Positions 2,835 to 29,327 of a stretch of DNA of 64,000 bases are shown here, one piece after another. Each line of letters begins with the position of its first letter. The stretch's first letter is position 1. The notes beneath the pieces are model-generated. The model saw nothing but the letters and a program-made list of their open reading frames with translations. It ran no database searches and had not been told where the DNA came from. The translations under genes were made by a program, and so were the position numbers. The stretch comes from Frankia nepalensis (GTDB taxonomy: Bacteria > Actinomycetota > Actinomycetes > Frankiales > Frankiaceae): the NCBI RefSeq assembly GCF_016786325.1, contig NZ_JADWYU010000098.1:40494-104493 (forward strand), read 5' to 3'.

Positions 2835-3051
2835 GGTCACGCAGCTTAGATCTGATGGACACGTACAGTCACAAGACTCGCGGACTGCCGATGGTGTCAG
2901 GAACAGGACCCATTGACGTGACGGTCTCGGCGAGGTCGCCAGGCTCACCGGCAACGCCCCGAAACTCGCCGCAAAGAAAGAGAACCACTATGCGCTGATG
3001 CCCGGGAGTGCCACTCGTCGCGGAGAACGGCGCCGCGGACCGTGACGCCGC

Positions 3052-4038
3052 TCAGCGCAGGCGCGAGGACGGCATGCCGTAGCGGGTGGCGATCGCGGCG
3101 GCGCGGTCGTGCAGGGAGGTACGCAACCACCGCGGGGCCAGGGCCTCCGCGTTCGTGGCGAGCTGCCACAGCGCCCATTCGGCGTGTCTCGGATCCTGGA
3201 AGGTCACCTCCAGCCGCAGCCAGCCGTCCGCGTCGACTTCTTCGGCGCGGACGGCCAGCGCGGTGCCCACCAGGTCTTCCCGCCGCGCCGGGTCCACCCG
3301 TACCAGCACGGTGACCTGGTCGCCGCCGGTCCGGAACCGCGTGCCGCGTTCCTGCCAGGCGCGGTCCAGATCGACCCGGTCTGGCCGCTGCGCGGGTTCG
3401 GCGAGTTCCTCGGCAGCCAGGACGCGGGACAGCCGGTAGGTGCGGTCCGCGCCAGATCTCGTGGCCAGCAAGTAGCCCTGGTCGCGCACGGTGACCAGGC
3501 CTATCGGGTCCACCGTGCGCCATGTCGGGGTCTGGCCCGCGGCCGCGTAGTGGATGCGCAGCTTGTGGCCGGCGAACACCGCGCGCCGGACCTCGGCCGC
3601 TACGGTGTCGGGCACCTCCTCAGCGACCAGCCGGCGTGAGAGGAGGTCGGTCTCCGGGTCGATGAGCAGTCGCTGGGCCGCGCCGGCCGCGGTGTCCCGA
3701 TAGCTTTCGGGCAGCGCGTCAACCACCTTGAGCATCGCCGAAGCGAGCGCCGACCCGAGGCCGAACGCCTGCGCGCCGCGCCGTGATCCGGCGACCAGCA
3801 GGGCAAGGGCCTCGTCGTGGTTCAGTCCGGTGAGCTCGGTGCGGAAACCGGGCAACAACGCGAACCCGCCGTGCCGGCCGCGTTCGGCGTAGACCGGGAC
3901 GCCGGCCGCGGACAGCGCCTCGATGTCGCGCAGCACGGTGCGGGTGGATACCTCCAGCTCGCGGGCCAGCGCGGCCGCGGACAGCCGACCATGCTGCCGC
4001 AGCAGCAGCACCAGCGAGACCAACCGGTCGGCGCGCAC
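3052..4038 (-). CDS. YafY-type transcriptional regulator with HTH and WYL domains
   Basis: The protein has 328 residues. The N-terminal helix-turn-helix begins RADRLVSLVLLLRQHGRLSAA and includes STRTVLRDIEAL, typical of the DeoR-like HTH_11 fold. It is followed by a WYL-type sensor domain around residues 135-210 and a C-terminal extension typical of YafY proteins. The start is GTG at 4038; a TAGAGT -10-like box at 4045-4050 sits about seven bases before it, so the mRNA may be leaderless. It is divergent from the RidA gene and a 27-bp dyad lies between them, suggesting that it controls itself and RidA. The ligand is unknown. Confidence 0.88.
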   Translation of the reverse strand: MRADRLVSLVLLLRQHGRLSAAALARELEVSTRTVLRDIEALSAAGVPVYAERGRHGGFALLPGFRTELTGLNHDEALALLVAGSRRGAQAFGLGSALASAMLKVVDALPESYRDTAAGAAQRLLIDPETDLLSRRLVAEEVPDTVAAEVRRAVFAGHKLRIHYAAAGQTPTWRTVDPIGLVTVRDQGYLLATRSGADRTYRLSRVLAAEELAEPAQRPDRVDLDRAWQERGTRFRTGGDQVTVLVRVDPARREDLVGTALAVRAEEVDADGWLRLEVTFQDPRHAEWALWQLATNAEALAPRWLRTSLHDRAAAIATRYGMPSSRLR

Positions 4039-4054
4039 ACGAAAACTCTACCGG

Positions 4055-4081
4055 AATACACGACACAGGATGTCATGTATT
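4055..4081. promoter_or_regulatory. 27-bp imperfect dyad between WYL regulator and RidA gene
   Basis: The arms AATACACGACA and TGTCATGTATT are 11 bp each with one mismatch and a 5-bp spacer. The dyad lies just upstream of the regulator's -10-like box and 88 bp before the RidA start. It is the natural candidate operator for the WYL regulator; binding is inferred. Confidence 0.6.
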
Positions 4082-4168
4082 GCTGGGAGGCTTCTCGACA
4101 GGACGAAAAAGACGGTGGCTACCGAGTCGATGGGCGTTCGTCCTGTCAACGAGTCGAAGGGAGTCAAG

Positions 4169-4570
4169 ATGGCAATGGAGCGAACGGCGGTCAATCCGTG
4201 GGCGTGGTCGGTGGAGATGGGGTACAACCAGGGTGAGATCGTCTCCGGGCACACCCGGACCCTGTACTGCGCCGGGCAGACCGCGATGAGCGGTGACGGC
4301 AAACCCCAGCACGCCGGTGACATGGCGGCGCAGTTGGCGCTGAGCCTCAACAACCTGGAGGCCGTGCTCGGCGAGGCCGGCATGTCCCTCGCGAACCTCG
4401 TCCGGCTCAACGTCTACACCACCGACGTGGATCGACTCTTCGAGCACTACGCAGTGCTGGCCTCGCGGTTGGGCGCCGCCGAGATGGCACCGCCCACCAC
4501 GATGCTCGGCGTCGCACGGCTGGCAATCCCCGACCTGATGGTCGAGCTTGAAGGGACCGCCGTCGCGTGA
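4169..4570 (+). CDS. RidA family enamine/imine deaminase-like protein
   Basis: The protein has 133 residues, the usual RidA/YjgF length. It contains GHTRTLYCAGQTAMSGDGK at the N-terminal strand, a helix with NNLEAVLGEAGMSLANLVRLNVYTT, and the closing PPTTMLGVARLAIPDLMVELE. RidA proteins hydrolyse reactive 2-aminoacrylate-type enamines or related substrates in the cytosol. The ATG at 4169 was chosen because AAGGGAG lies at the right distance upstream and the longer reading frame to the left is not protein-like. The divergent WYL regulator probably controls it. The subclass and substrate are not determined. Confidence 0.88.
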   Translation: MAMERTAVNPWAWSVEMGYNQGEIVSGHTRTLYCAGQTAMSGDGKPQHAGDMAAQLALSLNNLEAVLGEAGMSLANLVRLNVYTTDVDRLFEHYAVLASRLGAAEMAPPTTMLGVARLAIPDLMVELEGTAVA

Positions 4571-4791
4571 CGCGACCTCGCCACCGCAGGCAGGCCGCCG
4601 GTTGGACCGGCACGAGTAGTGCCGTGACCGCCAACGCCGACCCGCCGCGCAGGATCGCCGACAGCGCCCCGGAAAGGTGGCGGACAAGGCCAGGTCGCGA
4701 CCTCCAGAAAGCAAAGAACGGCGATTGTCTCCGGCGCCGGGACAGGACGAACCCTGGCGGGCCGCGGTGATGGGCAGGTGGGTGATTTCCG

Positions 4792-5277
4792 GTGCTCAGG
4801 ATAGTGACGATCGGCGTCTACGGCTTCGGCGGCGATTCTTTCCTGCAACGGCTGCGGCACGCGGACGTTCGCCTGCTGCTCGACGTACGCCAGCGCCGCG
4901 GTGTCCGCGGGCCCGAGTACGCCTGGGCGAACTCACGCCGGCTGCAGGCGGCCCTCGCCCAGGCTCGGATCGCCTACGAGCATCACCCCGAGCTCGCCCC
5001 AACCACCGAGTTACGCCAGCTCCAGTACGCCGAGGATGACCGTCAAGGGGTCGGCAAGCGCTCGCGCCGCGTACTCGCCGCGGAGTACACCCGCCGCTAC
5101 ACCAACGAGATCCTCGACCGCGCCGACCTCACGCCGATCGTGTCGGAGCTGCCGAGCAGCGGGACCGCGGCTCTGCTCTGTGTCGAGCGCGACCCCGAGG
5201 CCTGCCACCGTTCGTTGATCGCCCAGCGGCTGATCGAGCGGCACCACGTCACGATCGAACACCTGCGCCCGTCGTGA
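4792..5277 (+). CDS. DUF488 family protein
   Basis: The protein has 161 residues and starts at GTG 4792. It shows the family's TIGVYGFGGDSFLQRL opening, the LLLDVRQRRGVRGPEYAW block, and the near-C-terminal ALLCVERDPEACHRSLIAQRL motif with its conserved Cys-His-Arg. DUF488 proteins are small cytosolic proteins of unknown biochemical role. It stands alone between the RidA gene and a convergent membrane-protein gene, and no clear Shine-Dalgarno sequence precedes it. Confidence 0.85.
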   Translation: MLRIVTIGVYGFGGDSFLQRLRHADVRLLLDVRQRRGVRGPEYAWANSRRLQAALAQARIAYEHHPELAPTTELRQLQYAEDDRQGVGKRSRRVLAAEYTRRYTNEILDRADLTPIVSELPSSGTAALLCVERDPEACHRSLIAQRLIERHHVTIEHLRPS

Positions 5278-5306
5278 CTCGTGAACTCCCAGGGCACGGT
5301 CGGCAT

Positions 5307-5972
5307 TCAGCTGGCTGACGCGGGGGCACCGCGGCTGGTGGCCGGGCCGGCCGACCGGAGATACCCGGCCACAGCAGCGCTTGTCACGGCGGCCCAGGCG
5401 CACCACAGCGAGGTGACAGCGTCAGTCGCGATCCAGGCCAGCAGCGCGACCGCGGCCAGGTTGATCACGCCGAACCAGCGCAGGAACCGCTGTCCGGAGA
5501 CAATCAGCGCACCGCACGTACTGACGAGATACAGAGCGATGACCACCGCTCCGGCCGGCAGATGCACGTGATAAACGATGTGATGGCCCTCTGGGCGCGC
5601 CGTGAAGGGCTCCGTGACAAGGGCCGCCGCCAGCCATATGGCGCAGAGCACGCCGGCGACAAGCGTAACGATCTCAACCGCCCGAAGCATTGGCGCGTCT
5701 TCCAGAACCAACACCATGACAGGCACGTACACCGGCAGGACGACGAAGGCGACGCCCAGGTAGAGCGCGGTCGCGACCGTCTGGACCACGTCACCGACGT
5801 CGCCGCGCAGCCCCCACCAGACGAACGCCTCGACCAGCGTGTGCCCGGCGAGCAGGAGCGGCAGCGCCGCCAGCGGCCACTGCGCGCCGTTCTGGACATG
5901 ACGGGCGGCGTCGACGCCGATACCACCAATCACGACGGCGGCCACGACGTCGGCCTCCGGGGAGAAACACAT
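5307..5972 (-). CDS. DUF6629-like multi-pass membrane protein
   Basis: The protein has 221 residues, begins MCFSPEADVVAAVVIGGIG and has about seven hydrophobic segments spread along its length. The N-terminal CFSPEAD signature and overall topology match a family of actinobacterial membrane proteins I recall as DUF6629. Its function is unknown. It is convergent with the DUF488 gene, with only 29 bp between the two stops. The family name comes from memory of the N-terminal motif and should be treated as probable. Confidence 0.75.
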   Translation of the reverse strand: MCFSPEADVVAAVVIGGIGVDAARHVQNGAQWPLAALPLLLAGHTLVEAFVWWGLRGDVGDVVQTVATALYLGVAFVVLPVYVPVMVLVLEDAPMLRAVEIVTLVAGVLCAIWLAAALVTEPFTARPEGHHIVYHVHLPAGAVVIALYLVSTCGALIVSGQRFLRWFGVINLAAVALLAWIATDAVTSLWCAWAAVTSAAVAGYLRSAGPATSRGAPASAS

Positions 5973-6228
5973 TCCGGCCCCCGTCCGCGGTTCACACCCG
6001 CCCCTGCCGCCTCGGAGTATCTCCTGGTGGCTCGGGCCTCGACAATCTCGGCGGCGGCGTCCTGGACCGGCCGCGTCGGCGGCTGGTCAGCTCCTGGCCG
6101 CCCCCGATCTTCCGAACGCCCGTGGGAGGGCCCCACCGGATCAGCTCGCGAAGGCGGGGCCCGCCCTTGTCGGGATCCTTACCCCGCTCCGAATTCCCGT
6201 GCCTGCCAGGCTCCGGCATGATGCTCAG

Positions 6229-7383
6229 GTGCTGAGCGTGCCGCGGGCCTGGTCGGACGTGACCCCACAGTGGATGACGGCGGCTCTCGCCGCCGCGTGC
6301 CCCGGCGCCGCGGTCGCGGCGGTCGAGATCGACGACCTCGCCGACGGGACGAACAGTCGAGCCCGGGTGCGGCTGCGCTACGCGTCAGGCGGCGGCCCGG
6401 AACGGGTGTTCGTCAAGCGCGAGGGCCGGATGCTCAACCGGCTCGCGCTGACCGCCCTGGGCGCCCGGGAGGCCGAGGCCCGCCTGGCCGGTGCCGGGCC
6501 GGACCTGCCGCTGGAGCATCCCGCCTTCTACGCCGCCGCCGTCGACCGGCGCAGGCTGGCGACGGTGACCGTGATGGAGGACGTGACGCTGCGCGGAGCG
6601 CGGGCGAACGTCGCCACCGTCCCCCTGGAGGTCGACCAGGTGCGCGACGGCCTGCTCGGCCTGGCCAGGCTGCACGCGGCCTACTGGGAGAACTCGCTGC
6701 CGGGGCCGCTGGATTTCGTGCGTCCCTGGCGGCTCGGGCGGGTCTGGGCGCCGGTCTCCTGGGCGAGCCTGGCACGGGCGCTGCGGCTGCTGCGGTCCGG
6801 CGGGCACGACCGGCTGATCCCCGCCGGCGTCGACGCGGGTGTCGTCGAGCGGGGATTCCGCGGCTGGGCGGCGCTGGCGGCGGCGTACCCGCGGACGTTG
6901 CTGCACGGCGACCCGCACCTGGCCAACACCTACGCCCTGCCCGGAGGCGTCACCGGCTTCTACGACTGGCAGCTGGTCCGGGCCGGCAACTGGTCGCACG
7001 ACGTCGGGTATTTCCTGGTCTCCTGCCTGAGCACCGCCGACCGGCGTGACCACGAGCGTGATCTCCTGGGCGACTACCTGAAGGAACTCGCCGGCCAGGG
7101 GGCACCCGGCCCGGGGCTCGACGAAGCCTGGGACCTGTACCGCCAGACGCCGGTGTTCGGGCTCGGCACCTGGCTGCACACGCTGTCCGGTGGCGGCTTC
7201 CAGCCGACCGACGTGTGCCTGGCGGTCATCGAGCGTTTCGCCACCGCGCACGCCGACCACAGCGGCGCGGTCACGCCACCGCGGCGCCGGTCGCGCATGG
7301 CGTTGCCCCGGCCCCGCACCCCTGGGTCCGCTCAGCCTGTCCCGACGAGCCCGACGACATCCACCTCCACCAGCGACCGGTGA
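6229..7383 (+). CDS. Aminoglycoside-phosphotransferase-fold kinase-like protein
   Basis: The core motif LLHGDPHLANTYALPGG gives the catalytic-loop HGDxHxxN, followed by GFYDWQLVRAGNWSHDVGYFL with the metal-binding Asp-Trp. Together they define the APH/choline-kinase fold, in the branch related to ecdysteroid-kinase-like proteins. From GTG 6229 it has 384 residues; an upstream GTG at 6199 would add ten residues that do not look conserved. A CATGAT box at 6217-6222 would fit a leaderless start at 6229. The C-terminal tail is Pro/Ser/Thr-rich. The substrate is unknown; a small-molecule hydroxyl is more likely than an antibiotic. Confidence 0.8.
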   Translation: MLSVPRAWSDVTPQWMTAALAAACPGAAVAAVEIDDLADGTNSRARVRLRYASGGGPERVFVKREGRMLNRLALTALGAREAEARLAGAGPDLPLEHPAFYAAAVDRRRLATVTVMEDVTLRGARANVATVPLEVDQVRDGLLGLARLHAAYWENSLPGPLDFVRPWRLGRVWAPVSWASLARALRLLRSGGHDRLIPAGVDAGVVERGFRGWAALAAAYPRTLLHGDPHLANTYALPGGVTGFYDWQLVRAGNWSHDVGYFLVSCLSTADRRDHERDLLGDYLKELAGQGAPGPGLDEAWDLYRQTPVFGLGTWLHTLSGGGFQPTDVCLAVIERFATAHADHSGAVTPPRRRSRMALPRPRTPGSAQPVPTSPTTSTSTSDR

Positions 7384-7448
7384 CGCCGGATCAGCGCGAA
7401 GCCGACGCCGGGACTGACGGACGGGCTCCGCGCCACGACCTGACCGGC

Positions 7449-7479
7449 GGTCGAGCGGTCGAGCGGTCGAGCGGTCGAG
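7449..7479. repeat. 8-bp tandem repeat (GGTCGAGC, about four copies)
   Basis: GGTCGAGC is repeated three times in full, followed by a partial fourth copy, in the gap between two convergent genes. It is a simple slippage-type repeat with no visible function. Confidence 0.85.
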
Positions 7480-7560
7480 ATTAGCCGCGCAACGGCAGCG
7501 GCCCGGCAGCGAGCAAGCACTCGCACCGGCATCGCCGGGGCAGGCAGATCCTCCGCCGGA

Positions 7561-7595
7561 GCCTCGGAGGTAGCGCCGCGCGCCACCTCCGAGGC
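7561..7595. terminator. Hairpin between convergent genes, likely bidirectional terminator
   Basis: A perfect 11-bp stem (GCCTCGGAGGT with ACCTCCGAGGC) closes a 13-nt loop. It lies between the stop of the phosphotransferase (7383) and the stop of the rhodanese gene (7625). There is no U-tract, as is common in high-GC actinobacteria. Confidence 0.65.
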
Positions 7596-7624
7596 CTCGC
7601 CGCCGACCGTCACGAAACGAGGAG

Positions 7625-7951
7625 CTAGGCCGATTCGGTGGGCAGGCCGGCCGCCACCCAGTCCTCGATGCCCTCGCGGTACTTGCGGACGTTGGAGTAG
7701 CCGAGCGCGGTGAGCCGGTCGGCGACCTGCCCGCTGTTCGGGCAGGAGGGGCCGGTGCAGTAGGTGACGATGGCGGCGCCACGGTCCGGCAACGCGGCGG
7801 ACGCCCTCGCGCCGACCTCGGCCGGGACCAGGGGCAGGGCCCCGGGCAGGTGCCGCTTGGCATAGTACTCGCCGCCCAACGCGTCGACGACGGTCACGTT
7901 CCCGGCGTCGATCGCCGCCTTCAGCTCTTCACGGGTGATGAGCACGGTCAT
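7625..7951 (-). CDS. Rhodanese-like domain protein (single domain)
   Basis: This is a 108-residue single rhodanese domain with the expected landmarks: VVDALGGEYYAKRHLPGAL near the N-terminus, the active-site loop YCTGPSCPNSG carrying the catalytic Cys, and YREGIEDWVAAGLP at the end. Such proteins transfer sulfane sulfur or carry redox-active cysteine in the cytosol. The ATG at 7951 follows a good GGAGG seven bases upstream. Transcription probably starts inside the palindrome shared with the divergent TetR gene, so the TetR protein likely represses it. Confidence 0.9.
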   Translation of the reverse strand: MTVLITREELKAAIDAGNVTVVDALGGEYYAKRHLPGALPLVPAEVGARASAALPDRGAAIVTYCTGPSCPNSGQVADRLTALGYSNVRKYREGIEDWVAAGLPTESA

Positions 7952-7971
7952 GCCACTACCTCCAAAGGAAT

Positions 7972-8020
7972 CGGACTATAGTCCGGTTGTGCAGGAGAAC
8001 CTTAGCGGACCACAGTCCGC
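7972..8020. promoter_or_regulatory. Divergent promoter with two GGAC-N4-GTCC operators
   Basis: CGGACTATAGTCCG (7972-7985) is a perfect 14-bp palindrome. Because it contains TATAGT on both strands, it can provide a -10 box in each direction. A second site, GCGGAC-N4-GTCCGC (8005-8020), lies 34 bp away, inside the start of the TetR reading frame. Two matching half-site patterns next to a TetR gene suggest autoregulation and joint control of the rhodanese gene. Confidence 0.75.
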
Positions 8021-8612
8021 TTACGCAACCCCGTTGGAGCTGCTCCGTACCCCGCCGCCCAAGGAACGAGCCGACGCCGCGCGCAACCGGACGGCCGTGC
8101 TGGACGCGGCCGCCCGGCTGTTCGCCGAGCACGGGGTGGCGGCGGTCTCCATGGACCAGATCGCCGCGGCCGCCGGAGTGGGCAAGGGCACCCTCTTCCG
8201 CCGCTTCGGCGACAAGGCGGGCCTGGCGGTCGCGCTGCTCGACACGCGGGAGCAGGTGCTACAGGAGGCGATCCTGCACGGGCCACCGCCGCTCGGCCCC
8301 GGCGCGCCGCCCGCCGAACGGCTCACCGCGTTCGTCGACGCCTACCTCGACTACCTGCTCGAGCACCTGGACCTGGTACGGATGTCGGAAACCGCGGCGC
8401 CCGGCGCCCGCTACCGCATCGGGGCCTACCGGTTCTGGCACCGGCACGTGGCCATCCAGCTGGGCGACGCACCCGACCCGGACCACGCCGCGCACACCCT
8501 GCTCGCCGCGCTGGCCGCCGAGCACGTGGCCGCGCTGCTGCCCGAACTCGGCGAGCCACGCATCAGAACCGGCCTACGCCGCCTCGCCGAGAACTACAAC
8601 GCACGTCGCTAA
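7989..8612 (+). CDS. TetR/AcrR family regulator, probably autoregulated and leaderless
   Basis: The N-terminal HTH reads NRTAVLDAAARLFAEHGVAAVSMDQIAAAAGVGKGTLFRRFGDKAGL, a textbook TetR_N domain. The rest is a helical ligand-binding domain. The start is ambiguous: GTG 7989 is seven bases after the TATAGT box, so a leaderless mRNA starting there is the best fit and gives 207 residues. No ATG exists before the HTH. The divergent rhodanese gene and the paired GGAC-N4-GTCC sites indicate that it regulates both genes. The ligand is unknown. Confidence 0.87.
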   Translation: MQENLSGPQSAYATPLELLRTPPPKERADAARNRTAVLDAAARLFAEHGVAAVSMDQIAAAAGVGKGTLFRRFGDKAGLAVALLDTREQVLQEAILHGPPPLGPGAPPAERLTAFVDAYLDYLLEHLDLVRMSETAAPGARYRIGAYRFWHRHVAIQLGDAPDPDHAAHTLLAALAAEHVAALLPELGEPRIRTGLRRLAENYNARR

Positions 8613-8786
8613 GGAAGCGGGTCCGGGGAGGAGCGGAGTGGAGTCGGGGGAAATCCCCGCCCCGCCGGGTGAGGCTTCCCTGCTCGACCACGCAAACCTC
8701 GATGAGGGCGAACCTCACCGCGCCAGGCAACGGCCACCCGCCGAGCTGGCCCGGCCACGGTGCCGAGGCGCCTCGGTCGCGCGCTT

Positions 8787-9824
8787 TCAGGAATCCCTGT
8801 CGCCTCGGTCTTCGGAGGACCGCTCTTCGACAACGTCGACGAAGACCGAGGCGACGAGGGCGACCATGCGGTCGCCGTCGTGAGTCAGTTGGCGCAGAAC
8901 CTCCCGCGCCGCGGTCCCCGGCAGCTCGACCAGCGCCTGGGTCAGGCGTATCCGCACCGCGGAGTCCGCGCCGGGCGCGGCGAGCTCGTCGACCAGCGCG
9001 CCGATGATCCGGTCCGCGCAGTCCGAGTCCAGGGACAGCGTTCCCAGGACCTCCGCCGCCTCGACGTCGCCTGCGCCCTCGACCACCATGGCGACGAGTG
9101 TCGGCACGGCGGCGGTCACGCCGTGCCTTCCCAGCGCCAGCGCGGCGTGCCGGCGCACCGTTGTGTCCGGGTCCCCGAGCGCGTCCGCGAGCACGGCGGT
9201 CGCACCCGGGGACCCGGACATCTCGGCGATCGCCAACACCGCGCGCTGCCGGATGCCGACATCCCGCGAGTGCACGCCGGCGGCCAGCGCCGCCACGCCG
9301 TCGGCGCCCGATCGGGCGAGCGCCCAGCGCAGAGCGCCCGCGACGTTGGGGTCGGACTCGGCCAGGACCGCCCTGGCCAGCAGCTCGGCGGGAACGGACA
9401 CGCCCTCGGGTCGGGCCAGGACGGCCTGCTGCCTGCGTGTGGCGCTGGTCGAGTCGAGCCCCTGGATGAGTTCGACGATACGCAGTACGCCCTGCCAGTT
9501 GGTGGGCGCCGACGCGTCGATCGCGCGGAGCCGCTCGAGCAGCTCCCGTTCCCGCTCCAAACGGTCTTCGGTCGACCGGATGAGGTCGCTGACCAGGGCG
9601 GACGGCGAGAAGGCCGGGTCCTCCAGCGCCCGCCCGACCTGCTTGAGCGAGAGCCCGAGAGACCGCAGGCTCTCCACATGGAAGATCCTCCGGACGTCCT
9701 CGGCGGAGTACTCGCGGTAGCCGCCGACGGTGCGACCGGTCGGTCGCACCAGCCCGAGGGCGTCGTAGTACCGAAGCATCCGGGTGCTCACCCCCGAGTG
9801 GCGGGCCACGTCGCCGATCAGCAA
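8787..9824 (-). CDS. MerR family regulator with C-terminal HEAT-like repeats
   Basis: Residues 1-110 form a MerR-type winged helix (LIGDVARHSGVSTRMLRYYDALGLV, then GGYREYSAEDVRRI and a coiled dimerisation helix). From about residue 130 the protein turns into HEAT-like helical repeats (VRRHAALALGRHGVTAAVPTLVAMV). The start is TTG 9824, overlapping the stop of the upstream HEAT gene, so translation is probably coupled. A MerR-type promoter precedes the two-gene operon. MerR proteins activate by twisting 19-bp-spacer promoters. The HEAT domain may bind a protein rather than a small molecule, which is inference. Confidence 0.85.
   Translation of the reverse strand: MLIGDVARHSGVSTRMLRYYDALGLVRPTGRTVGGYREYSAEDVRRIFHVESLRSLGLSLKQVGRALEDPAFSPSALVSDLIRSTEDRLERERELLERLRAIDASAPTNWQGVLRIVELIQGLDSTSATRRQQAVLARPEGVSVPAELLARAVLAESDPNVAGALRWALARSGADGVAALAAGVHSRDVGIRQRAVLAIAEMSGSPGATAVLADALGDPDTTVRRHAALALGRHGVTAAVPTLVAMVVEGAGDVEAAEVLGTLSLDSDCADRIIGALVDELAAPGADSAVRIRLTQALVELPGTAAREVLRQLTHDGDRMVALVASVFVDVVEERSSEDRGDRDS
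8799..8855. repeat. 15-bp perfect inverted repeat inside the 3' end of the MerR gene
   Basis: GTCGCCTCGGTCTTC at 8799-8813 is the exact reverse complement of 8841-8855, with a 27-nt loop. It lies in the last 70 bp of the MerR-HEAT reading frame, so the mRNA can form a strong hairpin just before the stop. It may act as a terminator or protect the 3' end. Confidence 0.7.
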
Positions 9825-10675
9825 TCCACTGCCTCCGCGGCCTCCATCGACTCGGCCGTCTCCGCGGGTTCGCCGATCTCCGCGACGCCGGCGGTCTCCG
9901 CGGTCTCGGCGGCCTCCGAAGTCTCGATGGCCTCCGAAGCCTCGGCGGCCTTCGAAGTCTCACCGACTCCCGGCGCTGCCGCGGCAGCGGCAGCGGCGGC
10001 GGCTCGTTCCGGGCCGAGCGCGATGACCCGCTTCGCCTCGTCGATGGCCGCGTCGAAACCGGCCTCCGGGTCCTGGCGGAGCAACCTGGTGGCGCGGGCG
10101 TGCGCGGCCACGGCCGGGTCGGGATCCGCCGTGGCCTTCTCCAGGGCGGGCTCGACCACGTCGCCGAGGTCGACGAGCGCGCGGCTCAGGCTCAGCCGCA
10201 CAGCGCGGTCGCCGCGGCCCAGCTGCGCAACCAGTTCGTCGGCCAGGTCCTTCTTCTCGTCCTCGGGCACGAGGGCGACCGCGAGGCGCCACGCGGTGCG
10301 CGCGACCTCGTCGTCGGCGTCACGCAGCATGTCGCGTGTGATCCAGGCCCACGCGCCCCTGTCGCCGATCTTGCTGAGCGTGTGCAACGCCTGGCTGCGA
10401 GCCTGAACGCGCGCGGAGTCGAGTTCCCGGCGGATCCGGGGCAGGGTGATCTGCGGCGAGAGGCGGGTCAGCGCCCAGGAAAGCATGTCTCGCACGAAGA
10501 AGTCCGGCTCGACCGCGCACCGCTCGACGAGCGTCTCCAGGAGGCCGGGGTCGGGGTTCGAGCCGACCGCCAGGGCCGCCTGAAGCCGGACCGATGGGTC
10601 CTTGGCGCCCAGGGCGTTGGCCACGCGGGTGTTCTGCGGGGTTCCGTCTGTCGTGTTGATCGGACCACCTCCCAC
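9818..10675 (-). CDS. HEAT repeat protein, first gene of MerR operon
   Basis: The protein is made of HEAT/armadillo-like helical pairs (SVRLQAALAVGS, EVARTAWRLAVALV, AVRLSLSRALVDLG) followed by an Ala-run and a low-complexity tail rich in EASEAAETAE near the C-terminus. Its stop overlaps the TTG start of the MerR gene. The start is uncertain. A GTG at 10696 lies upstream of the predicted transcription start. GTG 10675 could be a leaderless start. The best Shine-Dalgarno (GGGAGG, 10668-10673) is instead seven bases before an ATC codon at 10660. It is probably a scaffold or partner of the HEAT-bearing MerR regulator. Confidence 0.75.
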   Translation of the reverse strand: MGGGPINTTDGTPQNTRVANALGAKDPSVRLQAALAVGSNPDPGLLETLVERCAVEPDFFVRDMLSWALTRLSPQITLPRIRRELDSARVQARSQALHTLSKIGDRGAWAWITRDMLRDADDEVARTAWRLAVALVPEDEKKDLADELVAQLGRGDRAVRLSLSRALVDLGDVVEPALEKATADPDPAVAAHARATRLLRQDPEAGFDAAIDEAKRVIALGPERAAAAAAAAAAPGVGETSKAAEASEAIETSEAAETAETAGVAEIGEPAETAESMEAAEAVDC

Positions 10676-10679
10676 TCCC

Positions 10680-10710
10680 AGTGGAAGCCCTATCACCGTG
10701 TCAAGGTCAA
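10680..10710 (-). promoter_or_regulatory. MerR-type promoter with 19-bp spacer and dyad
   Basis: On the minus strand TTGACC (10710-10705) and TCCACT (10685-10680) are separated by exactly 19 bp, the spacer length characteristic of MerR-activated promoters. Inside lies a 19-bp imperfect dyad (10706-10688) of form CC-T--CAC-GTG--A-GG. Transcription would begin near 10673. The operon's own MerR protein is the likely regulator. Confidence 0.65.
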
Positions 10711-10831
10711 GCCCGTGACCAGCGGTTCACAAGATCGCCTGACTCGGGTGCGTCGGCATGGTGGATGACGGTATGGGACACCGCACAGGTGCCGGTGGAG
10801 CGCGGGAAGGCGGCCTCGGCGCGGGTGCCCC

Positions 10832-10877
10832 TCTCTCGCTCGAACACGGGCGACTCTCTCGCTCGAACACGGGCGAC
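10832..10877. repeat. 23-bp perfect tandem duplication
   Basis: A 23-bp unit containing CTCGCTCGAACACGGGCGAC occurs twice head to tail in the non-coding gap between the HEAT operon promoter and the deaminase gene. It is probably a replication-slippage product. Confidence 0.85.
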
Positions 10878-10937
10878 GCGACCTGATGCTCAATGTCGGG
10901 TGGGGCTTCGTGAGCTTCCGATCATGCCGCCCGGGTT

Positions 10938-11423
10938 CTACCGGAGGTGGGGGAAACGGGCGCGGTGCAGGCTCCGGACGATCTCGGTGAAACTCTCCAC
11001 GGGGCCTTCCACGACGGCCCCTGGCACGACCCGCGAGATTGGTAGCGCCGCGACCGGCGCCGGTGGAACTCCCCATTCTTCGAGCCACGAGACCAGCTGG
11101 CCGCTGGACGCCGCGTAGACGATGCGCCCCAGGCCAACCCAGCCGTGGCTCGCGGCGCACATGGGGCAGTGCTCGCCGGATGTGTACACGGTCGCCGCCG
11201 CTCGTTCGTCCGGCGTCAGGTTCTCGGCGGACCACCGGGAGATCTCGAACTCGGGGTGGCGCGTGGCGTCCCCGTCCTTGACCCGGTTCCGGTCCTCGAA
11301 CAGGACCGCGTCATCGCCTGACACGAGCACGGAGCCGAATGGCTCGTCACCATCCTCCAGCGCCTCGCGCGCCAGTTCGACACACCGTTGAAGGTGAACA
11401 AGATCGGCCGCGGTGATGGTCAT
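10938..11423 (-). CDS. Nucleoside/guanine deaminase-like zinc enzyme (CDA superfamily)
   Basis: The 161-residue protein carries the cytidine-deaminase-fold zinc motifs: HPEFEI (the HxE motif with Pro in place of the usual Ala) and GEHCPMCAASHGW (the CxxC). The fold opens with LARRAL-like helix REALEDGDEPFGSVLV. Enzymes with this layout deaminate guanine, other nucleobases or nucleosides in the cytosol. The HPE form and CPMC spacing suit the free-base/nucleoside branch better than tRNA adenosine deaminase. It stands alone, minus strand, with GTG/ATG start at 11423. The substrate is not decided by the sequence. Confidence 0.82.
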   Translation of the reverse strand: MTITAADLVHLQRCVELAREALEDGDEPFGSVLVSGDDAVLFEDRNRVKDGDATRHPEFEISRWSAENLTPDERAAATVYTSGEHCPMCAASHGWVGLGRIVYAASSGQLVSWLEEWGVPPAPVAALPISRVVPGAVVEGPVESFTEIVRSLHRARFPHLR

Positions 11424-11537
11424 CCACTGATCTTCCCGCCTCGCCTCGCCTGGCCTGTCATGACCCGCCCGGCCACCACGTCGCTCCTGATCGATCTCCG
11501 GCGAGACAAGGGCTCCCGGTCAGGCGGCGCGCCGTCG

Positions 11538-12005
11538 TCAGGGGCGGTTGAACGCCCACGCGACGAGCAGGGCCAGACCCGTGGCGACCAGCACCAGCGC
11601 CACCCCGCCGAGAAAGAAGAACCCGACCGTCTTCAGCAGCGCCACCGCGACCGGGACGGTGGCGGCTAGAACGAGGAAGCCCCGGGCGGTGACCGGAGCC
11701 CGCAGCAGCGTCAGCCACGTCCTCGACGCGCCGTATCCTTCCTCGCTCAGGTCCGCCAGCGCGGCCGGGACCAGCCGCAGCGTCCCCCAGGACAGCGCGG
11801 CGAACGCGACGGACAGCCCGAGGGCGTATAGGAAACCGATGGCGCCGCCGAACGCGTCGAACGACGCGCCGGCCCCGATCGCGGTACAGACGAACGCGAG
11901 GTACCAGGGCACGGTGCGGTCCTGTCGGGCCTGGACGGCCAGCCGGCGGGCCTGCGCCATCCGCTCGGCGCGCCGACCGCCTCCCGCGGAATCCATGACG
12001 TCCAT
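11538..12005 (-). CDS. Small membrane protein of unknown function
   Basis: From ATG 12005 this is a 155-residue protein. A basic N-terminal cytosolic stretch (RRAERMAQARRLAVQARQDR) is followed by four hydrophobic helices, grouped as two pairs separated by a short charged loop (LSEEGYGASRTW). ATG 12005 is preceded by AAGGGG; a longer frame from 12056 is possible but lacks a ribosome site. No family was recognised. Neighbours give no functional hint. Confidence 0.6.
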   Translation of the reverse strand: MDVMDSAGGGRRAERMAQARRLAVQARQDRTVPWYLAFVCTAIGAGASFDAFGGAIGFLYALGLSVAFAALSWGTLRLVPAALADLSEEGYGASRTWLTLLRAPVTARGFLVLAATVPVAVALLKTVGFFFLGGVALVLVATGLALLVAWAFNRP

Positions 12006-12140
12006 CGCAGACCCCTTCCCTCCACGCTCGTGAACCCTCGGATACTCGACGTCCATCGTCTCGCCCCGGATCCGGGAACGCAGGACATCGCCGGATTCGA
12101 CGGGCCATCAGGCCCGCCGAGGGTCCGGTCTTGGGATGAC

Positions 12141-12473
12141 TTACCGGCCGAGTTGCCGGTTGAGCTCCTCAAGCATGTCAATGATTTCCAGTCTGCTGGT
12201 GCCGGCTGGCGTGATCCGCGTCGTGCCGTAGGCGAGCTCGGCCAAAGCCGAGCGCGCGGCGGCAAGCTCGGCCGCGGTGACGTCCAGTTGGTACCAGGAG
12301 GCGTTGGTCGCCGGGACGGCCTCGTCACGCAGCCGCACGGCGACGGCCCGCGCCGTCTCGGCGCCCACGCCCGTCCGGATCCTCCACTCGTCGTCTCCAA
12401 GGTCGTCCAGGGCAATGTCGACGGCGCGCGAGAATGGGTCCGTGTCCGATCTGGCCTGGGACGACGTGCGCAT
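12141..12473 (-). CDS. Small protein of unknown function with duplicated C-terminal segment
   Basis: The frame contains RTSSQARSDTDPFSRAVDIALDDL at the N-terminus and ends with ELAYGTTRITPAGT and EELNRQLGR. The last 33 codons (12142-12240) are 91% identical in DNA to 28990-29088. The start is weakly supported: ATG 12473 overlaps the divergent gene by 32 bp and its only purine-rich tract touches the ATG. No known domain was recognised. It may be about 110 residues, or shorter if another start is used. Confidence 0.45.
   Translation of the reverse strand: MRTSSQARSDTDPFSRAVDIALDDLGDDEWRIRTGVGAETARAVAVRLRDEAVPATNASWYQLDVTAAELAAARSALAELAYGTTRITPAGTSRLEIIDMLEELNRQLGR
12142..12240. repeat. 99-bp dispersed repeat, copy 1 (copy 2 at 28990-29088)
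   Basis: The segment matches 28990-29088 in the same orientation at 90 of 99 positions. Most differences are at third codon positions of the minus-strand frame, which points to past selection as coding sequence in both copies. Here it is the in-frame C-terminus of a small gene. Confidence 0.85.
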
Positions 12474-12939
12474 CCTCTTTGATCCTGAACTGAATGGGAC
12501 CTTGCCCGATGTGGCCATCGACCCGGCCGGCGTGGACGACTGGCAGGCGATCTTCGACCTGATCCGGGCTCGGAACTGGGTTTGCGAATACACGGAGGGC
12601 TCCGCGGCGCTCGCCCTGCCCTCCGCCGGGGAGATCTTCACTCGGCACGGGCGGGAGTCCGTTCTGTTGAAGATGTGGCCGACCCCGGATGTCCAGGTGA
12701 ACTTCTGGCCGATGAGCGCGGACCGTGTCGATTTCGATGTCGACCTTCGAGAGCTGCAGGGCCAGGACCGCTTGGACGATCTGTGCGAGCTGCTGCGAGT
12801 ACTCGGGCGCCTGCTGGGCAAGCCGGTAGTGATGACGGCGGAAGGTAACTACCAGGACCGGCTACTCGGATACGACGTCGAAGCGGATCGGGTTGTTCTG
12901 CTGGTTGATCCGACCGCCGGCTTCGCCCCTCGGCCGTAG
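12442..12939 (+). CDS. Hypothetical protein
   Basis: GTG 12442 opens a 165-residue acidic protein: DDVRILFDPELNGTLPDVAIDPAG, WQAIFDLIRARNW, and VNFWPMSADRVDFDVDLRELQGQDRLDDLCELLRVLGRLLGKPV. The mixed strand-helix pattern and composition look like a small cytosolic alpha/beta protein. I recognise no family. It is divergent from, and slightly overlaps, the small gene at 12141-12473. Codon use is typical of the genome. An immunity-type protein is conceivable but not shown. Confidence 0.6.
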   Translation: MSDLAWDDVRILFDPELNGTLPDVAIDPAGVDDWQAIFDLIRARNWVCEYTEGSAALALPSAGEIFTRHGRESVLLKMWPTPDVQVNFWPMSADRVDFDVDLRELQGQDRLDDLCELLRVLGRLLGKPVVMTAEGNYQDRLLGYDVEADRVVLLVDPTAGFAPRP

Positions 12940-13358: not shown

Positions 13359-13784
13359 CTACAGATGGGAGGTCCAAGGGTTGACGAGTGGGACCCGCAT
13401 GGGCGCGAAGTCGGACTCGTTGCGGGTGACAAGCGTGAGGCTGTGGACCTGGGCTGTGGCGGCGATGAGCGCGTCGTGGGCTGGGCGTCGGTCGGGCACG
13501 TGGAGTCGTGCTGCCGAGTCGGCGACGGCTTGGTCGACGTCGAGCAGGCGGCCCGAGTATGCCGGGAGCACGTTCTGATCGAGCCATGAGTCCAGGATGG
13601 CTGCCTGTTGCGCGTCGTGCCGTCGTTTGTTCTCGATGCCTGCGCGCAGCTCCAGCAGGGTGATGACGGAGAGGTAGGTGTCTGATGGCGACAGGGTGTC
13701 GGCCCAGGCGTTGAATCGGTCATCTCTGCGTTTCGCGGGCTTGCGGAGCTCGGAGATGACGTTGGTGTCGAGTAGGAAGGTCAT
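13359..13784 (-). CDS. vapC: PIN-domain toxin, VapC/FitB type
   Basis: The 141-residue PIN domain begins FLLDTNVISELRKP with the first catalytic Asp. It has the ITLLELRAGIE block with the conserved Glu, HDALIAATAQ with the third acidic residue, and LVTRNESDFAPM near the end. VapC-type toxins are Mg-dependent ribonucleases, often cutting tRNA, held in check by the partner antitoxin. The ATG at 13784 overlaps the antitoxin stop by four bases (ATGA), indicating coupled translation. The gene may stabilise the island. Confidence 0.88.
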   Translation of the reverse strand: MTFLLDTNVISELRKPAKRRDDRFNAWADTLSPSDTYLSVITLLELRAGIENKRRHDAQQAAILDSWLDQNVLPAYSGRLLDVDQAVADSAARLHVPDRRPAHDALIAATAQVHSLTLVTRNESDFAPMRVPLVNPWTSHL

Positions 13785-14020
13785 AGGTCGACCTCGCGCA
13801 GGGAGTCCCGCGGACGCACCGGCTCGAAGTCGATCTCCTCGTCGAGGACGAACGCATCCCCCAGGCTGCCTGCACTGCCCGTGAGCCGCTGGTAGTCGGC
13901 GAACGACAGCAGCACGTGCGAGGGTCGTCCGTGGTCTGTGATGATCACAGGGCCGCTGGCGGCAGCTCGTTTGACCGCGCTCACGTCCCGGTTGAACTCT
14001 CGCGACGAGACCATGGTCAT
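13781..14020 (-). CDS. vapB: Phd/YefM-type antitoxin
   Basis: The small acidic protein (79 residues) opens MTMVSSREFNRDVSAVKRAAASGPVIITDHGRPSHVLLSFADYQRL, the Phd/YefM DNA-binding fold. A C-terminal acidic tail (FVLDEEIDFEPVRP) is suited to wrap the toxin. ATG 14020 was chosen because GGGGAGG lies eight bases upstream; the frame extends to 14029 without a better start. A perfect 16-bp palindrome just upstream is the probable autoregulatory operator. The pairing of a Phd-type antitoxin with a FitB-like PIN toxin is common. Confidence 0.87.
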   Translation of the reverse strand: MTMVSSREFNRDVSAVKRAAASGPVIITDHGRPSHVLLSFADYQRLTGSAGSLGDAFVLDEEIDFEPVRPRDSLREVDL

Positions 14021-14036
14021 CGCGACCACCTCCCCG

Positions 14037-14285: not shown

Positions 14286-16598
14286 TCACCCGTTCTGCCC
14301 TACGCCGGACGACAACAGGTATCGGGCACGCGTCGCGAACAGCGTGTCGTCCGTTCGTTCCACGCGCCAGAACCGCCAGTCGCCCGGGTTGGGCGCTCCG
14401 GTGGCGGCCTTGGCCGCGGCGCTCAGCGAGCGATGGATCTTGCCGGAAGCCGTGCGAATCCGGCCGTCGGCTGTCAGCGTCGCAGGGAACATCTGACCGT
14501 CGCGACGCCCAACGAGCCGTTCGTCGGCGCGCAGGAGGCCAGCGTCGATCAGTTCCTTCAGCGTCACGTTGTACCGCTGCCGCCGCCGGGGCGCATCGTC
14601 GTCAACATCGCGCCCGCCATCACCGCGATCATTGCCGACCGCCGTGACGGGCGATCGGGTGCTGGACGAGAGGGGCAGACCGAGTGACTCCGGCGACCAG
14701 ATCCGTTCGGCCATCGCCCGATACAACCGGCCGCGGGCATTGACGACCGCCTCTGGGGGGTCGCCGACATCGTAGGGCCGAAACAGCTCGGTCAGCCCCT
14801 GCTCTGCGATGAAGGTGCTGAAGCGTTTGTGTCCGCGGCTCCGGTAGATGTCCGGGTGCAACGAACCAGCCAAAACATTGGACCGAAGGTACGACGCGAG
14901 CTTTCTTTCCAGCGGCAGGCCACCGACGCTGGCGTTGTCCGACCCGTCGAGCAGGACAAGGCCACCAAGCCGTGACCGCATGCGCTCGAAGTCCGTGGCG
15001 GACGTTGCCTGCGCCGCGTAGGTGCCGGCGCCGCTGCTCTTCGTGAACAAGTGTTCAACCTCGAAAGGCCGTCGACCTTGCGCCACCGCCAGCAGGTGCT
15101 CCACGTTCTCGCTATGGCCGGTACCTCCCGCCAGCCACACGGTGAGTCTGGCGAGGAGATACAGCACGAAAGACCGGTTCCCGCCCTGCAGGTAACGTAG
15201 CTCGGGCATTTCGACGAGATGGACGTACCAGCCGGCTGCTGCCTCGCCGAGCACATGGCCCAACTCATCAGCGGTGCGGGTCATCCGTACTCGGCCGAGC
15301 AGCGCCGACACCAGTTCGTCGAGCTCGCTCGGGCCGTAGGGCAGCTGCCGGACCCCGCGGGTGACGACGAATAAGTCAAGGAACCGGGCCACCAGCTCGG
15401 CCTTACGAAGTACGGATGGCTCCGGCTCGTTCGGCTCGGCGGCGGCTAACGCAAGGTCGAACTGGCGCGGTATCCGGTGATAGGTATTATACCAGATCGC
15501 TTCCTGGCCCGGACGGAGCTGGCTCGTCGCCTCCAGCATCGCCACATAGGGCCGCGAAAGCGGCTCGAAGACATCGGTGAAAAGCCTGACCCGTCCGTCC
15601 CTCTTCCGGTTCTGACCGATAGTTTCGGCATTTTCGTGGAGCCATTCGTGTGGAGCGCTCTCCAGCAGCTGGCTGGCATCGGCGGCGGGAGTTACGTACT
15701 TGGCGCGCACCACCGCGCGCACGAACTCCAGCGGGGCGTCCCGGTCCGGGCCGTGCAGCTTGTCAACCATATGCTGCCACCGCAGGTCGAGCTGGTAAGG
15801 ATCGCCGGGCGCGTCGGCGAGCAGGTAGTTCTTCAGCAGGTCCAGCGGGGCGAGATGTTTGCCGCGGTCATTCATCGCGGAGAACATCTCCTTGCCGCGG
15901 GTGGCGTCGCCGGCGTCGAGCTCGACGAGCGAGACCCGGTCGAGAAGCCAGCGGGCGAAGTACGGAAGCGCGTCCTGCTTCAGGTCCTCCGGCCAGCGAG
16001 TAAGCAGATGCTCCGCGGCCTCGTGCAGCCGCCGCACATCGGCGGGCACACCGTCGCTGGTAAAAGGGCGGTCGTTGGCGAGCTGGTCAAAGAACTCTGC
16101 ATACCGGTCGACGCGGACGGCGAAGTGCTGGCCGCCATGGTCCTCGCCGCGCATAAGCAAGCGAACCGCCGCATGTAGGTGTCCAGCGTCGTGCCGGTAC
16201 TCAGTCAGAGTGCCCAGCCTGATCAGCATCAGCAGTAGCGTGATGACCCGCTGCTGACCGTCAGCAAGATATATCCGCCCATTCTGGCGATAGATAATAA
16301 TGGAGCCGAGAAAATAGGGATCGTAAAGCTTGGTATCCTCCTCCAGATGTGTCTCGTACCACTGTGCGGTGAACTTCGCCGCCAGATCGTCGACCAGTTT
16401 CTCGACCTGTACGATTTCCCAGGCGTAATCACGTTGGAAGGAGTCGAGATAGTAGGTCCTGCCGTCGAATAGCTTCCGGACCGTCAGCACTGCGGGCTCT
16501 ACCAGCGGTTTTGCGACCGCAGGTAGGCGTGCCATTCTCGGCACCGGCCTCCGGCTCGGTGGTCTCGTCGTGGCCACGGTGGCTCTTTCCGCCGTCAA
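14286..16598 (-). CDS. GmrSD-like DUF262-DUF1524 nuclease fused to C-terminal RAMA domain
   Basis: The 770-residue protein has DUF262 landmarks: FQRDYAWE (54-61), FLGSIIIY, and the ADGQQRVITL motif (112-121) of the GmrS NTP-binding/ParB-like site. A long helical middle leads to a DUF1524 HNH-type domain: VEHL with His516, then LGGLVLLDGSDNASVGGLPLERKLASY. The C-terminus (about 673-760) matches a RAMA-type module: VTLKELIDAGLLRADE, DGRIRTASG, SLSAAAKAATG, WRFWRV. GmrSD enzymes cut DNA with modified bases, and RAMA modules accompany restriction and methylation proteins. The TTG start overlaps the upstream stop (TTGA), so the genes are coupled. ATG 16535 is an alternative start. The architecture is seen; the role in defence is inferred. 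Confidence 0.85.
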   Translation of the reverse strand: MTAERATVATTRPPSRRPVPRMARLPAVAKPLVEPAVLTVRKLFDGRTYYLDSFQRDYAWEIVQVEKLVDDLAAKFTAQWYETHLEEDTKLYDPYFLGSIIIYRQNGRIYLADGQQRVITLLLMLIRLGTLTEYRHDAGHLHAAVRLLMRGEDHGGQHFAVRVDRYAEFFDQLANDRPFTSDGVPADVRRLHEAAEHLLTRWPEDLKQDALPYFARWLLDRVSLVELDAGDATRGKEMFSAMNDRGKHLAPLDLLKNYLLADAPGDPYQLDLRWQHMVDKLHGPDRDAPLEFVRAVVRAKYVTPAADASQLLESAPHEWLHENAETIGQNRKRDGRVRLFTDVFEPLSRPYVAMLEATSQLRPGQEAIWYNTYHRIPRQFDLALAAAEPNEPEPSVLRKAELVARFLDLFVVTRGVRQLPYGPSELDELVSALLGRVRMTRTADELGHVLGEAAAGWYVHLVEMPELRYLQGGNRSFVLYLLARLTVWLAGGTGHSENVEHLLAVAQGRRPFEVEHLFTKSSGAGTYAAQATSATDFERMRSRLGGLVLLDGSDNASVGGLPLERKLASYLRSNVLAGSLHPDIYRSRGHKRFSTFIAEQGLTELFRPYDVGDPPEAVVNARGRLYRAMAERIWSPESLGLPLSSSTRSPVTAVGNDRGDGGRDVDDDAPRRRQRYNVTLKELIDAGLLRADERLVGRRDGQMFPATLTADGRIRTASGKIHRSLSAAAKAATGAPNPGDWRFWRVERTDDTLFATRARYLLSSGVGQNG

Positions 16599-17284
16599 GG
16601 CAGTTTGACGACAGCCCTGGCCACCACGACCGGACGGCCGCCACCGGACCAGGTGAAGCCGGGCCGCACTACCCGGACGTCCGCGCCCGCGTCGAGGTTG
16701 GACGCGCCGACGGCCTCATGTACGTCACCGTCGAACAGGGTCCGCTCACCTGCCCGTCCGATTGGTGTGAGTCGGCGGCGACCGGCCTCATCGAGCAGCC
16801 AGCTCACGAGATCCGGCGCCGCTGCTCCGGCAGAGGCGAGCTGCGCAGCGTAGCCGACGATGCCCGCCACCAAGGCAGCCTTCTCCTGTTCACGCTGCTC
16901 GGTCCAGCTGATCTGGGAGCGTGGGCCGGCGATGGCAGAGCGGACGAGATTGTCGGTGACGTTGTCGGCGAAGGCCCCAATCAGCCAGGCTGGCCCGCGC
17001 CGGCCTGCGTAGGCTACTAGCGCGTCGAGGGAGACCTTGGCCGAGTGTGCAGCTGGAGACCACTCATACAGCGCCGGCTGCGGTTTGGAGACATGTGGAT
17101 GCGTGCGGAACAGCGGTCGCAGGCGCTTCCACTGGCGGTCCACGTCGTCGACAGGTACGCCGGCGTCGACCAGGACCGCGCGTATCTCCTGTAGCCGCAC
17201 CGGCCGATCGGCCCGCCTGATCACTTCGATGAACGCAGAGCCAGCGTCGTCGACGAACTGCTTTGCGAGAATCCGGTCGCCCAT
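16595..17284 (-). CDS. Winged-helix/GrpE-like protein, partner of the GmrSD-like nuclease
   Basis: From ATG 17284 (GAGG five bases upstream) the protein has 229 residues. Residues 10-75 look like a winged helix (AFIEVIRRADRPVRLQEIRAVLV, then WKRLRPLFRTHPHV and a YEW wing). A helical middle follows. The last 55 residues resemble the beta-domain of GrpE nucleotide-exchange factors: LFDGDVHEAVG, AGADVRVVRPGF, VVVARAVV. It precedes the nuclease gene with a 4-base overlap. A regulatory, sensing or chaperone-linked role is possible. The GrpE resemblance is short and should be tested by structure prediction. A longer frame to 17704 lacks coding character. Confidence 0.72.
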   Translation of the reverse strand: MGDRILAKQFVDDAGSAFIEVIRRADRPVRLQEIRAVLVDAGVPVDDVDRQWKRLRPLFRTHPHVSKPQPALYEWSPAAHSAKVSLDALVAYAGRRGPAWLIGAFADNVTDNLVRSAIAGPRSQISWTEQREQEKAALVAGIVGYAAQLASAGAAAPDLVSWLLDEAGRRRLTPIGRAGERTLFDGDVHEAVGASNLDAGADVRVVRPGFTWSGGGRPVVVARAVVKLP

Positions 17285-28988: not shown

Positions 28989-29327
28989 CTACCGGCCGAG
29001 TGGCCGGTTGAGCTCCTCCTCCATGTCGATGATCTCCAGCCTGCCGGTGCCGGCTGGCGTGATACGCGTCGTGCCGTAGGCGAGCTCGACGGGAGGACCC
29101 GACCACGTCCGTGCGCGCCTCGCGCCCGGCGGCGCGCAGCGGCGACGCCGAGTAGGCGTCGACGGGCTCGATGCGGGCGCCCGCGTCCACCAGCAGCCCC
29201 ACGATGTCCACACGGCCGCTGCGCGCGGCCTCGGCCAGTACCGGCCCTCGAAACCGGTCGATGCTCATGTTCGGGTCCGCGCCGTCGGCCAGCGCCTGTC
29301 CGAACGGGCGCCCTTCAGGGCAGCCGG
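28989..29327 (-). pseudogene. Ankyrin-repeat gene remnant joined to a duplicated segment
   Basis: The 5' part encodes ankyrin-like sequence (ADGADPNMSIDRFRGPVLAEAARSG, then IVGLLVDAGARIEPVDAYSASPLRAA). After about 29095 the meaning shifts to another frame, which encodes ELAYGTTRITPAGT and EELNRPLGR, the segment duplicated from 12142-12240. The upstream frame is closed by a stop and lacks a normal start. Truncation at both ends plus a frame change make a functional product unlikely. Confidence 0.65.
28990..29088. repeat. 99-bp dispersed repeat, copy 2
   Basis: It matches 12142-12240 at 90 of 99 positions in the same orientation. Here it is attached out of frame to an ankyrin fragment. Confidence 0.85.

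Follow-up and report, generated by a model that had tools for sequence, protein, structure and literature searches.

What does a protein with a winged-helix-like head and a GrpE-like tail do beside a predicted nuclease, and do the genes for the two proteins belong together? The question is raised by two minus-strand genes, here called A and B, in a 64,000-nucleotide stretch of the 10.7-Mb Frankia nepalensis genome (the window). Both open reading frames named in a preliminary description of this DNA were found (Table 1), and the overlap through the letters TTGA that it had reported between them was not borne out. Such an overlap needs a TTG start codon for B that the relatives do not have. In Frankia gtarii, whose B protein is the nearest relative at 82% identity, the N terminus reads MTTTRTPRRG and aligns with the window codons running from a GTG at 16577 (VATTRPPSRR). 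On this alignment we favored the shorter gene, which leaves a gap of about 17 bp between A and B in the window. The two genes are closely spaced, without overlap, in every genome. Since the gaps in the relatives range from about 15 to 110 bp, we rejected translational overlap as a conserved trait; it is probably an artifact of a wrong start codon. Residue numbers in B are counted from the TTG.

Table 1. Features of genes A and B, with positions in the window
Feature	Residues	Position	Strand	Evidence
Gene A		16595..17284	minus	ORF, 229 aa; six homologs aligned; AF2 model, structure matches, profile match to GrpE
A, winged-helix-like domain	1-78	17051..17284	minus	Weak VIA matches, Z 5.8/5.7; conservation
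A, GrpE-like helices and beta domain	126-229	16598..16909	minus	8gb3_E, Z 10.0; hhalign probability 85.5, score 38.3
Gene B		14286..16577	minus	GmrSD/SspE/DndI-like nuclease carrying RAMA at its C terminus; GTG at 16577 the probable start
Gene B, longer ORF		14286-16598	minus	770 aa; TTG start at 16598 also possible
B, DUF262/GmrSD_N, D113-G-Q-Q-R117	41-260	15819..16478	minus	PF03235, E 4.6e-23
B, DUF1524 His-Me finger core, E515-H516, N555, K566	510-575	14874..15071	minus	PF07510, E 0.0012
B, RAMA	667-761	14316..14600	minus	PF18755, E 1.2e-18; match to MPND RAMA-DNA complex 7ydw_A

Judged by its sequence and its model, B is a DUF262-DUF1524 nuclease of the GmrSD/SspE/DndI type with a C-terminal RAMA domain. 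The same three parts had been read earlier, two of them from short motifs that are present (FQRDYAWE and DGQQR for DUF262, VEHL followed by LGGLVLL for the HNH-like region), and Pfam matches and the predicted structure agree with that reading. DUF262 scored 82.8 bits against a Pfam cut-off of 33.2, and RAMA scored 67.4 bits against 35.2; GmrSD_C (PF07510), at 19.2 bits, fell under its cut-off of 23 in B itself and was above the cut-off in three homologs (L008, L009, and L013). The DGQQR motif was invariant in 11 homologs of B. The AF2 model of B (mean pLDDT, 80) matched DndI (9jfl) with a Z of 20.5 over 521 residues spanning B 35-637, at an rmsd of 7.7, and SspE with Z scores of 19.8 and 19.6, the large rmsd against SspE probably reflecting movement of the domains. 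The score against BrxU was lower (Z, 12.2), so that by fold score B is closer to DndI and SspE than to BrxU. In the C-terminal region, residues 676 to 763 matched the RAMA-DNA complex of MPND (7ydw_A; Z, 13.1; 84 residues; 1.5 Å), and the RAMA region also matched the C-terminal domain of CcrM (Z, 12.2). We predict that the RAMA domain of B reads a modified base. PADLOC placed B nearest to HEC-06/Orf5/SspE, with no full match.

The active-site residues of B appear to be a variant of those in known enzymes. An alignment of the B clade showed D113 to R117, E515-H516, N555, and K566 kept throughout, and the structural HNH Asn (GNL in SspE) was Gly or Ala across the whole clade, being Gly546 in the window. 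N555 aligns with SspE N676, which is needed for nicking and phage defense, and the middle Asn of the SspE HNH has been described as structural (PMC9646914). Since H516 and N555 are kept and the GNL Asn is replaced by Gly or Ala, the site is a variant that is probably active; the nuclease activity of B is itself predicted by analogy with SspE and BrxU. B shares its domain order, the DGQQR motif, and the D/E-H motif with the GmrSD/BrxU type IV enzymes and, unlike them, has RAMA, a variant HNH core, and close homologs that are always accompanied by gene A. The phosphorothioate-sensing effectors SspE and DndI are its best whole-length matches (Z of about 20), but they have neither the extra RAMA nor the partner A. 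Of the phosphorothioation genes, dndC (TIGR03183) was the one searched for, and it was absent from seven carrier or relative genomes.

Gene A had no family match in Pfam, PADLOC, or NCBIfam. A sequence search of the PDB returned insignificant matches only, and we therefore compared folds. The AF2 model was of moderate confidence (mean pLDDT, 67), reaching 75 to 90 over about residues 161 to 229, with residues 61 to 84 poorly predicted. It consists of a winged-helix-like N-terminal domain, a helical linker, and then a GrpE-like helix/beta domain. Residues 124 to 229 matched Mycobacterium tuberculosis GrpE in its complex with DnaK (8gb3_E) with a Z of 10.0 over 97 residues, at 2.8 Å and 20% identity. 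All of the top six VIA matches were GrpE proteins or complexes (Z, 10.0 to 6.9), the first unrelated match having a Z of 5.8. A profile of A compared by hhalign with a GrpE profile built from 17 actinobacterial sequences scored 38.3 (probability, 85.5); as controls, 20 column-shuffled versions scored 7.6 to 17.5 and the profile in reverse scored 11.1. In the alignment of the tail, F184 and H189 were invariant and D185 was present in six of seven sequences, with N in the other. The Pfam GrpE family (PF01025) did not match A of the window and matched two of seven relatives below the gathering score (best E, 0.096); we therefore call the protein GrpE-like rather than GrpE.

These comparisons, made on a predicted model, uphold the earlier proposal that the C terminus of A folds like GrpE, and the C-terminal half of A is predicted to take the GrpE helix-plus-beta fold. 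Of the GrpE architecture, A seems to have kept the last part of the stalk together with the helical bundle and the beta domain, and the winged-helix-like domain takes the place of the long stalk. The proposal of a winged helix at the N terminus stands in a weaker form. Conservation in A is highest over residues 1 to 78, where 28 of 78 columns are invariant, and the structural matches of these residues, to the N domain of RNA polymerase delta (Z, 5.8 and 5.7) and to the SAMD1 WH (Z, 5.7), are weak and below the level at which we would trust them. No Pfam winged-helix or HARE-HTH family matched this domain, which we describe as winged-helix-like. A thus shares with the GrpE exchange factors their predicted fold and an FD...H motif; unlike them, it has the winged-helix-like domain, a sub-Pfam score, and no Hsp70 gene as a neighbor.

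We searched 196 relatives with B as the query and a species-level genome collection with peptide patterns. The intact close homologs, with identities of 46 to 82%, came from Frankiaceae and from Winogradskya humida (Micromonosporaceae). Each of the six genomes in which B is intact and at least 46% identical has A directly upstream of it in the same orientation: the window genome, Frankia gtarii (G025), Pseudofrankia sp. (G005), G020, G030, and Winogradskya humida. In G033 a contig ends inside B, with an intact A beside it, making a seventh pair; in G015 B is broken, A is absent, and transposase-like genes lie upstream. A profile search covering 35 genomes at the order level and 396 at the phylum level turned up no full-length A that lacked B. 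Four weak matches to the profile (G469, G477, G486, and G145), of which two were inspected at the locus, seem to be out of frame or due to chance. The two genes are thus conserved together, as the preliminary description required, and in this clade we regard the pairing as obligate. The pairwise identities of A and of B were correlated (r, 0.81; Mantel 10/720; six pairs), which fits coinheritance and, with six pairs, is inseparable from ordinary descent. Besides its intact pair, the Pseudofrankia sp. genome contains a degraded second B C terminus comprising the RAMA part (L030; G005:C125:64485-64978).

Other actinobacteria encode GmrSD-RAMA proteins without an accompanying A. Three of them (L008, L009, and L010), 27 to 33% identical to B, are encoded at loci without a recognizable A, and A is therefore not required by the GmrSD-RAMA architecture in general. 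A gene predicted to encode a type I RM methylase lies close to the L008 gene. No plasmid searched carried gene A, the plasmid relatives of B among the matches listed were 24 to 29% identical and stopped before RAMA, and viral contigs contained no relative of A or B.

The composition of the pair suggests that it was acquired, since its GC content (65.5%) and GC3 (0.77) are below the window values (72.2% and a median of 0.92, respectively). Gene A differs from its closest relative at 22, 21, and 82 sites in codon positions 1, 2, and 3. Because these differences are mostly in the third position and 46 to 48% identity is kept in another family, chance is excluded as an explanation of the cassette. 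Two of the loci are set in defense islands. The Frankia gtarii pair adjoins a SNF2 helicase, an N6 methylase fragment, and an Mrr nuclease, and the Winogradskya pair is near E2-E1-JAB, MBL-fold, and patatin genes; this setting supports, short of proof, an antiphage role for the pair.

We put at about even the chance that A and B form a horizontally mobile two-gene antiphage module in which the nuclease B works with A as its dedicated partner. B would be an NTP-gated enzyme that cuts or nicks DNA, with RAMA as its DNA-reading end. The winged-helix-like head of A would probably bind DNA or the nuclease, and the GrpE-like tail, most likely dimeric, would bring the housekeeping DnaK to the nuclease. 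Alternatively, the tail might be a GrpE-derived assembly domain that holds the nuclease inactive or loads it, an action that would last until foreign or modified DNA is encountered. The contacts of A with B and with Hsp70 are putative, as are the roles given to A in regulating or remodeling the nuclease and to DnaK in taking part.

Hints of a link to Hsp70 come from outside the pair. No Hsp70 gene lay beside A and B in the loci examined, so that any Hsp70 partner of A would be the housekeeping DnaK; neither Hsp70, DnaJ, nor methylase genes were consistently linked to the pair in these loci. The profile of A matched a 302-amino-acid protein in another actinobacterium, G036 (E, 1.2e-8), which has a helical, probably coiled-coil region followed by a GrpE-like tail. 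Its gene adjoins an Hsp70-like gene and a gene for a DrmD-like SNF2 helicase; genes for BREX BrxL and for a GmrSD nuclease are a few kilobases away, and all five fall within positions 384 to 12601 of one locus (L051; G036:C12:43000-60000). This locus is the best hint that a GrpE-like tail of this type still serves Hsp70, and the Hsp70/GrpE-like/SNF2 trio may be a defense module of its own. A search with the 302-amino-acid protein revealed no informative wider family. GrpE D171 docks on the Hsp70 lid (PMC11685456) and, to judge from the motif, would fall in the FD motif kept by A. A 146-amino-acid protein with a C-terminal GrpE domain above the Pfam cut-off is encoded at L045 1477-1917 in G032, a genome of the same taxonomic family as the window genome.

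How A might act on B can be read in several ways. That A is a DNA-targeted Hsp70 cochaperone, tethering DnaK through its winged helix so that the ATP cycle licenses or restrains cleavage, we consider unlikely on present evidence. A could also be an autoregulator or an antitoxin-like neutralizer, its winged helix acting on the shared promoter and its tail dimerizing or masking the nuclease, with no part for Hsp70. The position of A before B in every intact pair, the lack of a linked Hsp70 gene, and the strong conservation of the winged-helix part all favor this explanation, but the tail retains the GrpE beta core and the FD/H motif, and the cousin of that tail in G036 adjoins an Hsp70-like gene; we regard it as a tentative possibility, on the unlikely side.

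In a third reading, A would confer DNA specificity on a modification-dependent nuclease made of two subunits; its winged helix and the RAMA of B would both read DNA, in the manner of the winged helices of 6mA-dependent type IV enzymes, and its GrpE-like part would be just a dimer scaffold. It draws on the presence of RAMA in B, on winged-helix fusion endonucleases that sense 6mA (PMC11037411), and on the inclusion of a SAMD1 WH-DNA complex and RNA polymerase delta among the matches to the head of A. Those matches, however, all have a Z below 6, and residues 61 to 84 of the model are poorly predicted, which leaves this reading improbable in our view.

We found no account in the open-access papers searched of a winged-helix/GrpE-like partner of a nuclease or of a GrpE-like protein with a restriction endonuclease, and what we saw there of GmrSD with RAMA did not describe the A-B pair; the pair is apparently a two-gene version, not previously described, of an already known type of nuclease. 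We judge DUF4357, where it stands at the C terminus of GmrSD homologs, likely to be RAMA-like. GmrSD-type nucleases with extra C-terminal domains are known (PMC4619093, PMC12707154), those with DUF4357 among them having been reported in 2015 (Machnicka 2015, PMC4619093), and the parts of the 2015 report available to us describe no winged-helix/GrpE-like partner. The novelty therefore rests in the pairing and in A itself. Hsp70/GrpE pairs have been reported in predicted actinobacterial GAP1-N2 conflict systems (Kaur 2020, PMC7159879); as far as the accessible text goes, these are GTPase centered, and neither a GmrSD nuclease nor a winged-helix-GrpE fusion is mentioned.

If the GrpE-like tail is a nucleotide exchange factor, an Hsp70 machine would be linked directly to a DNA-cutting immune enzyme. 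The only earlier hints of such a link are the part of DnaJ in bNACHT25 sensing, in what we saw of that report (PMC12169576), and the predicted Hsp70/GrpE conflict systems just cited. Even if the tail is not an exchange factor, the pair is a compact two-gene candidate for defense, and its combination of folds escapes standard domain libraries.

Two further features of the window were observed. A VapBC-like pair lies directly downstream of B on the same strand, with a PIN toxin at 13359-13784 and a Phd/YefM antitoxin at 13781-14029. Two minus-strand ORFs 17 kb apart, at 12141-12821 and 28989-29213, share the C-terminal peptide ELAYGTTRITPAGT.RLEIIDM, which suggests a duplicated or decayed gene.
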